NCBI RefSeq assembly: GCF_020905375.1
Contig: NZ_JAJJBU010000029.1
Location: forward strand, 1 to 64,000
Direction: 5' to 3'
Source: Arthrobacter cryoconiti
GTDB taxonomy: Bacteria; Actinomycetota; Actinomycetes; Actinomycetales; Micrococcaceae
Length of the DNA stretch: 64,000 nt
Shown here: in pieces, positions 1-2,408 of the stretch
Position numbering within the stretch: position 1 is the first letter of the stretch
Layout of the letters: each line of letters begins with the position of its first letter
Position numbers and translations under genes: made by a program
Notes under the pieces: generated by a model
What the model saw: the letters and a program-made list of their open reading frames with translations, nothing else
The model's database searches: none
What the model was told of the DNA's origin: nothing

Positions 1-343
1 GCCACAACAGTTACCACCACGCCACCCCACGCACACCCAAAACACCCTAAACACCCAAAAAGCCCCAAATACAGGCCACGCCGCTTTGCTGGTCAAGGGT
101 CAAGGGTCAAGGGTCAAGGGTCAAGGGTCTGTGTCGGGAAACAGCCAAGTTTCTTGCCCGGCAGTCTCGTGGCCGCCGATGGATGGTCCTCGAAGGCGGG
201 CAATATAGCCGACCTGTCGGCACGGCATGGCATGGCGTACGCGTTCAATTCGATACCAGCGTGCTCATGCCGGGTCAATCTTTACCGGGTCAATTCATGC
301 CAGGTGTTCCCAATCCGTGGAGGGAAAAAGACGATTCCTGGCC
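1..343. other. Left-edge spacer, no supported gene
   Basis: I see no convincing gene here. The first 90 bases are A/C-rich. One forward frame stays open from the window edge to about 378, but its translation is low-complexity and shows no recognisable domain, so I treat it as chance. The stretch holds a heptamer tandem repeat (91-129) and a ten-base repeat ccgggtcaat occurring twice near 270-294. It could include the downstream tail of a gene outside the window. Confidence 0.5.
91..129. repeat. Heptamer tandem repeat GGTCAAG x5.6
   Basis: Five perfect copies of the 7-base unit GGTCAAG followed by a partial GGTC. The unit length is not a multiple of three, so a coding tract would shift through all frames; this fits non-coding spacer that can vary in copy number by slippage. 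Confidence 0.9.
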
Positions 344-940
344 CTATTGACTGTCGGTTACACGGACTCGAATAGAAGCGAAGTCGGCTGCAGCTTTACT
401 GAGGACAGCCAAATTGGGTTCACCGACCTGCAATGGATCAATCCGTGGACGAAGAGTATATGCACGAAGTACAGACTCGGACAGAACAGCTTTTACTAGT
501 TCCCGATCACCGCCGGTGGCCAGATATTCAAAGGTGTTGGCAGAAAAAACTCGGGAACCATCCTCGGCCGCTTTGAGGATGAGAGTGCTGTTGTTCTTTT
601 TCGGCTGCGCATGCTTACCGCCGCATTTGTGGGCTTGAAGCTTTCCGGATGATGCAACCCCGATGGCATAGCCACCGCGACGCATCAGAACAATTCCCAT
701 AGTGCGTTCCTGCGACGCGAGGGAGACTAGCCGATGCAGTAGGTCAGGCCCTTTCCCGGGGCGTCCGTCATCAGGCCATGGCGGTGAGAGCACTGCCAAG
801 GTGCCGTCTTTCATGTTCAGTCTGACGCCGTCGTCCGTGTCAGTGAGAGTGTCACACCCACCATGAGCGGAGCTAAAACGCTCGACCCAGCCGTCGAGCC
901 GGCCGGCGGGTACAAAGGTGAAGCGGGTCGGAGAAGTCAC
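344..940 (-). CDS. VLRF1-like peptidyl-tRNA hydrolase homologue, catalytic loop apparently missing
   Basis: Protein of 198 residues resembling the actinobacterial branch of the Vms1/eRF1-like release factors (acVLRF1), which release peptides from stalled ribosomes. The N-terminal part with the RRGGY segment (88-91), the GGDRELV segment (143-149) and the C-terminal helix fit the family as I recall it. Family members normally carry a loop of roughly 15-20 residues with a GxxQ-type glutamine motif after the strand ending near residue 105. Here the chain runs from KCGGKHAQ (105-112) directly to PKKNN, with no such motif. The GTG start lies 7 nt behind a TANNNT box, suggesting a leaderless mRNA. 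It is divergent from rarA. An enzymatically dead paralogue or a misassignment of family are both possible. Confidence 0.6.
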   Translation of the reverse strand: MTSPTRFTFVPAGRLDGWVERFSSAHGGCDTLTDTDDGVRLNMKDGTLAVLSPPWPDDGRPGKGPDLLHRLVSLASQERTMGIVLMRRGGYAIGVASSGKLQAHKCGGKHAQPKKNNSTLILKAAEDGSRVFSANTFEYLATGGDRELVKAVLSESVLRAYTLRPRIDPLQVGEPNLAVLSKAAADFASIRVRVTDSQ

Positions 941-971: not shown

Positions 972-2408
972 GTGAGCGACCTTTTTGATAGCGCCTTTAG
1001 CGACGACCTCGACGACGACGATGCCGGTGTCACAGTCCACGGCGTGCGTACAGGCAACGGCGAGTCACGTCCGCGCAATCCCCTCGCGGTTCGTATGCGG
1101 CCGCGCACTCTGGAGGAGGTAGTTGGTCAACAGCACCTCCTCGGCCCTGGATCCCCGCTGCGTGTGCTCGCGGCGGCAGACTCCTCTGGACCAGCTGGCC
1201 CCGCTTCCGTCATGCTGTGGGGGCCTCCTGGCACAGGGAAAACCACTCTGGCACATGTAATTGCACGCGGTCCAGGCCGGAAGTTCGTGGAACTTTCGGC
1301 CATTACCGCAGGCGTCAAGGACGTGCGCAGGGTCATGGACCAGGCTCTCATCGACCGCGACCTGCATGGGCGCACCACGATTCTGTTCCTTGATGAGATT
1401 CACCGTTTCAACAAAGCCCAGCAAGATGCGCTTTTGCCTGGAGTGGAAAATCGTTGGGTGGTCCTGATCGCGGCAACCACGGAAAATCCGTCATTTTCTG
1501 TTGTGTCGCCTCTTCTTTCCCGGTCCATCTTGCTGACCTTGAAGCCTTTAACGGACATTGATATTCACGCTCTTATAGAGCGTGCAATCACCGATCCGCG
1601 TGGACTCGATAATGTGGTTAGCCTCACTGATGAGGCCCTTGACCATCTGGTTCGGTTAGCTTCCGGCGATGCGCGCCGGGCGCTCACCACACTTGAAGCT
1701 GCTGCTGGTGTGGCCCTATCTCAAAGGCACGAGGGGCATGCCGGCGGGGAAGAGCCCGCAGTTGTCGACCTCGACATCGCAGAACGTGCGATCGACGCCG
1801 CCGCCGTGCGCTATGACCGAGCCGGAGATCAGCACTACGACATCATCAGCGCATTCATTAAGTCCATCCGGGGATCCGACGTTGATGCCGCATTGCACTA
1901 CTTGGCCAGGATGCTAGAGGCTGGCGAAGATACGCGGTTCATTAGTCGGCGGATCATGATTTCCGCAGCAGAAGACGTTGGTATGGCAGATCCCACGGCA
2001 CTACAAACAGCCGTTGCAGCTGCCCAAGCCGTCGCCCTGATCGGTATGCCTGAGGCGAGGATCATCTTGGCAGAAGCCGTCGTCCACGTGGCGACGGCAC
2101 CAAAATCAAACGCGGCGTACTTGGGCATCAATGCCGCCATCGCAGATGTCCGTGCTGGACGCGGAACAAGTGTCCCGTTGCCTCTGCGAGATGCCCACTA
2201 CGCCGGTGCCAGCGGCCTGGGCCATGGGAAGGGTTACATCTATTCTCACGATGAACCGCATTCAATCGCGACTCAGCAGTATGCCCCCGACGACCTTGTT
2301 GGAACGAACTACTACAACCCCACCGGTAATGGCGCTGAACGGGACCTCACAGTGCGGGTTGAGAGGCTGCGTTCCATCATCCGTGGCAAAGGCCCCTTGC
2401 CGAAGTGA
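972..2408 (+). CDS. rarA: Replication-associated recombination protein A (RarA/MgsA)
   Basis: AAA+ ATPase of 478 residues of the clamp-loader clade, acting at stalled replication forks. Walker A is GPPGTGKT (84-91) and Walker [10 protein letters not shown] (138-146). The C-terminal third corresponds to the MgsA tetramerisation region, with the [11 protein letters not shown] segment typical of RarA. Length matches the family plus a short acidic N-terminal extension (DDLDDDD). The GTG start is preferred because it sits 6 nt behind a TANNNT box. It is followed by rpsD in the same direction, separated by 258 bp. Confidence 0.95.

Follow-up and report, generated by a model that had tools for sequence, protein, structure and literature searches.

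The eukaryotic VLRF-1 protein Vms1/ANKZF1 is a release factor of 60S quality control that severs unfinished proteins from the ribosome. Release by yeast Vms1 is strongly impaired or abolished by changes at R288, G292 and Q295, and the mutants bind Rqc2 normally or more strongly (PMC5989216). The actinobacterial and chloroflexi VLRF-1 proteins form the acVLRF1 family (PF18859, NF041024), which was described with a conserved loop glutamine (Burroughs and Aravind, 2019) in the catalytic motif GGxSQ (Burroughs and Aravind, PMC6514570). Our literature search found no published activity of any acVLRF1. To our knowledge, the bacterial VLRF-1 families are predicted rather than demonstrated release factors. 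Dom34/Pelota carries the eRF1 fold without the catalytic GGQ loop, in a three-domain protein with a GTPase partner and an ancient, single origin. Bacterial aeRF1-type hibernation factors of the Balon/baeRF group (Rv2629, Msmeg1130) are also GGQ-less A-site proteins with three domains and an EF-Tu contact; Balon occupies the A site without a GGQ (PMC10901736). The only earlier account of inactive members of this superfamily that we found concerns Dom34 and most baeRF proteins, with none for acVLRF1, and recurrent loss of the catalytic loop in acVLRF1 was not found in the literature searched. Here we describe an acVLRF1-family gene without this loop in a 64,000-nucleotide stretch of DNA from Arthrobacter cryoconiti (hereafter, the window).

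An acVLRF1 Protein Without Its Catalytic Loop

The gene is transcribed divergently from its neighbor, and its parts map to the window as follows:

344..940, minus strand: acVLRF1-family gene without the loop, read from 940 to 344 including the stop codon (GTG start, 198 amino acids)
617..940, minus strand: residues 1-108, in which a short N-terminal extension leads into the first half of the RNase H-like core (strands to 100-108)
590..607, minus strand: deletion junction, residues 112-117 (Q-P-K-K-N-N), at the TAAGGxSQxRFARRR site of relatives; net loss of 16 codons
347..592, minus strand: residues 117-198, comprising the helix that follows the loop site and the remaining half of the core
972..2408, plus strand: rarA/mgsA, divergent neighbor 31 bp away (Pfam match to the orthologue in locus L006)

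A GGTCAAG-type heptamer is repeated about five times head to tail on the 3' side of the acVLRF1 gene, near the contig end (window 92-128).

The affiliation with VLRF1-like proteins proposed in a preliminary description of this DNA was borne out by both family profiles. The window protein scored 58.9 bits against Pfam PF18859 (cut-off 27.1) and 148.2 bits against NCBIfam NF041024 (cut-off 125), the latter match being split into two stretches that break at residue 114. Like other family members, it has a single RNase H-like domain with a short N-terminal extension and no stop-codon or Pelota domain. It also retains the invariant residues of the body on both sides of the loop site: R14, W18, F22, G46, L85, R87, G89, G90 and G107 within residues 1-108, and G143-G144-D145, P175 and L180 within residues 117-198. 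By descent, the window protein is an acVLRF1.

The GGxSQ motif, which family members carry on an extended loop following core strand three, is deleted. KCGGKHAQ (residues 105-112) runs straight into PKKNNST (113-119), exactly as first reported, so that KYVQSK[TAAGGQSQHRFARRRA]NQAD of the nearest loop-bearing relatives is reduced to KHAQPKKNNST (window sequence at the loop site: KCGGKHAQPKKNNST). Also deleted is the RFARRR block, with the conserved arginines that start the post-loop helix; only K114-K115 remain near the junction. Alignment to two loop-bearing loci (L002 and L003) gave a net loss of 16 residues, or 48 nt, in frame, within the 15-18 residues estimated earlier. An intact second copy, the presence of which the preliminary description had suggested checking, was sought with short and loop-bearing queries, and none was found in the genome (3.6 Mb, 99.97% complete). 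The absence of the loop is more than chance, given that its GG, SQ, R and RRR residues are identical in every one of 110 non-redundant loop-bearing relatives. Further, each of the 65 loci that were read in 16 other actinobacterial families has GG[WQR]SQ. The replacement of W by Q in GGWSQ was considered as a prelude to loss and rejected, because in other families many intact proteins carry GGQSQ.

Recurrent Loss of the Loop in the Micrococcaceae

A plain single-protein scan of the genome contigs returned no matches, and an alignment-based version of the search did return them. Among 395 Micrococcaceae genomes, the gene scored above the cut-off in 179 and was absent from 216; acVLRF1 is therefore not generally essential. 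The loop was missing in 44 of the 179 gene-bearing genomes, distributed over four genera (17 in g1, the genus of the window; 13 each in g10 and g32; one in g29). All 23 genomes of g1 carry the gene and 17 of them are loop-less. The six loop-bearing copies read K.G.K[YH][VI]QS[RK][TS]AAGG[QG]SQ[HQ]RFARRR.NQAD, one with R for the second K; among the loop-less copies, 15 read K[VA]G..S.RSRG or close variants and one reads KVGKGGRQAG. The 10-genome clade of g10 corresponds to Paenarthrobacter (histidinolovorans, nitroguajacolicus and nicotinovorans in the named records) and is loop-less in all 10 copies read. A. globiformis and most of the Pseudarthrobacter read have kept the loop.

Deletion boundaries separate nine types: the 15-species clade of g1, the window, L004, L056/L058, L057, the 10-genome clade of g10, a 12-genome clade of g32, L079 and L067. 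Two additional copies have eroded without losing the loop completely, one with GGSPQ and five residues deleted (L086) and the other of full length with RGSAQ (L096, Pseudarthrobacter sp. PS3-L1; RGSAQKKSARRR); both are likely intermediates of loop loss. In a g32 genome (L105, genome G327) a frameshift splits the gene upstream of an intact GGGSQ loop, marking either a pseudogene or a sequencing error in a loop-bearing copy. Short f45 genes had been suspected of lacking the loop, an idea that reading them refuted. Typical Arthrobacter-type loop-less loci were also met in records titled Sporosarcina beigongshangi (NZ_JADHDY010000020.1) and Acidobacteria MAG (JABBNV010000163.1). They are identical over the compared stretch to Micrococcaceae genomes G014 and G050, and the records are probably mislabelled or contaminated.

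A RarA tree of 80 loci, in which the genera themselves were intact, required 10 changes of loop state, as did a tree built from the acVLRF1 body after removal of the loop region. Forcing all loop-less rows into one clade of the body tree was rejected (p-AU 1.6e-97). One of the 10 changes is the eroded copy L096, leaving about nine losses. In a tree of rarA, rpsD, DUF948 and alaS from 28 genomes, the genome of the window grouped with four loop-bearing species (support 98/92), a position that makes its deletion probably a separate event. The same tree rejected joining the window genome to that of L004 (p 0.007), to the 15-species clade, with 14 members included (p 0.034), and to both (p 0.0125), though these values are moderate and the window branch is long. 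A single ancestral loss within the genus is rejected only moderately (AU p 0.0125). Unordered parsimony would also permit one loss and one regain in the genus, which is unlikely because the deletion boundaries differ. The differing boundaries are independent support for separate losses. Both trees and boundaries thus indicate that the loop was lost at least nine separate times in Arthrobacter and close relatives. What the preliminary description had presented as a single oddity is one of about nine to ten losses within one bacterial family.

Selection on the Loop-Less Body

Because pairwise dN/dS approached saturation in two clades, selection was estimated by codon maximum likelihood with the loop excluded. 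Omega was 0.139, 0.098 and 0.131 in the three loop-less clades, against 0.102, 0.086 and 0.070 in the loop-bearing clades compared with them. The loop-less values are higher by a factor of 1.1-1.9, and selection may be relaxed to some degree elsewhere than in the loop. Apart from the loop and its base, almost every position that is conserved in loop-bearing proteins remains so in the loop-less ones. R14, W18, F22, G46, A49, P54, L85, R87, G89, G90, G107, G143, G144, D145, P175 and L180 are each 92-100% conserved in loop-less proteins. Only the loop base (109-115) has lost constraint, apart from slight decreases in conservation at H26, G27, D45, R146 and D174. Codon substitutions thus indicate that selection on the loop-less genes is purifying and at most slightly relaxed. 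Together with the retention of the invariant residues, this argues for a selected function of the body. The suggestion that the gene might be decaying did not hold up: the reading frame is open in 44 of 44 loop-less copies, dN/dS is 0.10-0.14, and the invariant residues outside the loop are kept.

Predicted Structure and Comparison With Known Factors

AlphaFold2 modeled the window protein with a complete core (pLDDT 96.0, pTM 0.90) and a short turn at the loop site (residues ~109-116). The loop-bearing protein of L002 (93.5) was predicted to have a loop of lower confidence and a longer helix. A PDB sequence search with the window protein gave no match, and solved structures were matched by fold comparison only. 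In Foldseek searches, eRF1 and archaeal Pelota topped the matches of the window model and Balon ranked lower, with TM-scores that were modest throughout. The best query-normalised score, at 0.50, was to Vms1 on the 60S subunit (6r84). The loop-bearing model matched eRF1 first. For the window model, the matches are to the middle domains of eRF1, Pelota and Vms1. Model and sequence agree on an eRF1 middle-domain fold without GGQ.

The predicted fold and the homologous loop position link the window protein to Vms1, although Vms1 needs R288, G292 and Q295 for release and the window protein has no such loop. RqcH, the usual partner system of Vms1, was below the family cut-off in all 63 actinobacterial genomes searched, of both loop states (18.8 bits in the window genome against a cut-off of 31), making an Rqc2-style partnership unlikely. 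For the same reason, RqcH loss was rejected as the cause of loop loss. The window protein shares with Dom34/Pelota and Balon the absence of the catalytic loop, but resembles them in working principle only. It is a single domain without the decoding and Pelota domains that these factors use, is distant in sequence from Balon, and represents many recent, independent losses rather than one ancient origin. No baeRF family 2 protein was above the cut-off in the genus of the window.

A Candidate Function for the Loop-Less Protein

Repeated loss of the catalytic loop only, with a body that is almost unchanged and under selection, indicates that the body probably has a second job without the cutting activity. 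We give about an even chance to the reading that the protein is an acVLRF1 derivative without catalytic activity, maintained for a role in which the loop has no part. That role would most likely be non-catalytic binding at the large subunit and A site. By this account, a descendant of an acVLRF1 hydrolase would have lost the loop that reaches into the peptidyl-transferase center, together with the arginines that start the next helix. Without the glutamine loop, the known mechanism of hydrolysis is unavailable. The loop-less protein could then no longer hydrolyze peptidyl-tRNA by that route, a loss of catalysis that we infer from the Vms1 mutants. Purifying selection would have kept the body for a second function independent of the loop. 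The protein may occupy the A-site region of the large subunit in stalled or idle ribosomes, without catalysis, and shield, mark or help dismantle them, a ribosome binding and cellular role that we infer by analogy. Release would be left to ArfB and tmRNA, as with GGQ-less Pelota/Dom34 and Balon, the two systems that make a ribosome binder plausible. ArfB was above the cut-off in 45 of 48 genomes, and tmRNA was present in 23 of 23 genomes of the window's genus. ArfB was found with both loop states, and its presence was rejected as a switch for loop loss. A real difficulty for binding at the same site is the loss of RFARRR alongside the loop. These arginines are thought to contact rRNA, and their deletion could weaken such binding.

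The main rival is a job of the body away from the ribosome, perhaps with RarA/MgsA in replication stress. It draws on the divergent adjacency of acVLRF1 and rarA in the Micrococcaceae loci examined (L001-L105), the same family that loses the loop, and on 65 loci from other actinobacterial families in which no rarA was detected next to the gene. This explanation is nevertheless improbable: loop-bearing Micrococcaceae have the same neighborhood, and the adjacency arose once, so that its coincidence with loop loss counts as a single event. Slow decay, in which ArfB and tmRNA made catalysis redundant, the unselected loop eroded and a nearly functionless gene is now leaving the genomes, is slightly less probable still. 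It would account for the 216 genomes without the gene, the motif-eroded and frameshifted copies (L096 and L105) and the slightly raised dN/dS of the loop-less clades. However, no loop-less copy is interrupted, and the only frameshifted copy found still has its loop. All nine deletion types are in frame, an outcome expected about once in 20,000 if one third were in frame by chance (survivorship ignored). Further, the 15-species clade has held the gene, with omega 0.14 and its invariant residues unchanged, through divergence near dS 1.2.

Nor do we expect, except as a very slim prospect, that peptidyl-tRNA hydrolysis persists in the loop-less protein through other residues. Such an activity would fit two observations: all forms score high enough for NCBI to name them 'acVLRF1 family peptidyl-tRNA hydrolase', and the window protein keeps a Gln (Q112) near the turn. 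Yet Q112 is not conserved across loop-less forms, no conserved Gln or Gly pair is left, and a protein lacking the loop is not expected to bring any side chain to the peptidyl-transferase center. The preliminary description had allowed for short homologues of known activity; many short homologues exist, and no acVLRF1 activity was found in the published literature. Least credible, to the point of being negligible, is an assembly or sequencing artefact. The species is represented by one assembly, on which the window deletion rests, and the gene is 344 bases from the contig end. Against this, the deletion preserves the frame, its junction residues match those of no other form, and deletions of the same class recur in dozens of independent, named assemblies.

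We give slightly less than even odds to a tentative further reading: within one bacterial family, nine or more separate in-frame deletions of this invariant loop each turned a peptidyl-tRNA hydrolase into a non-catalytic ribosome factor that was then retained. If true, the eRF1-to-Pelota transition would have a natural counterpart that took place repeatedly, and what selection maintains in the acVLRF1 of these bacteria would be binding rather than hydrolysis. Closely related species that differ in having the loop, among them culturable Paenarthrobacter and Arthrobacter, provide a ready comparison. Because the window protein was checked for the motif that defines acVLRF1 hydrolases and does not have it, it should not be classed with them by function. 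Every loop-less form tested passed the 125-bit cut-off of NF041024 (148-183 bits), which leads to their systematic mis-annotation as 'peptidyl-tRNA hydrolase'.
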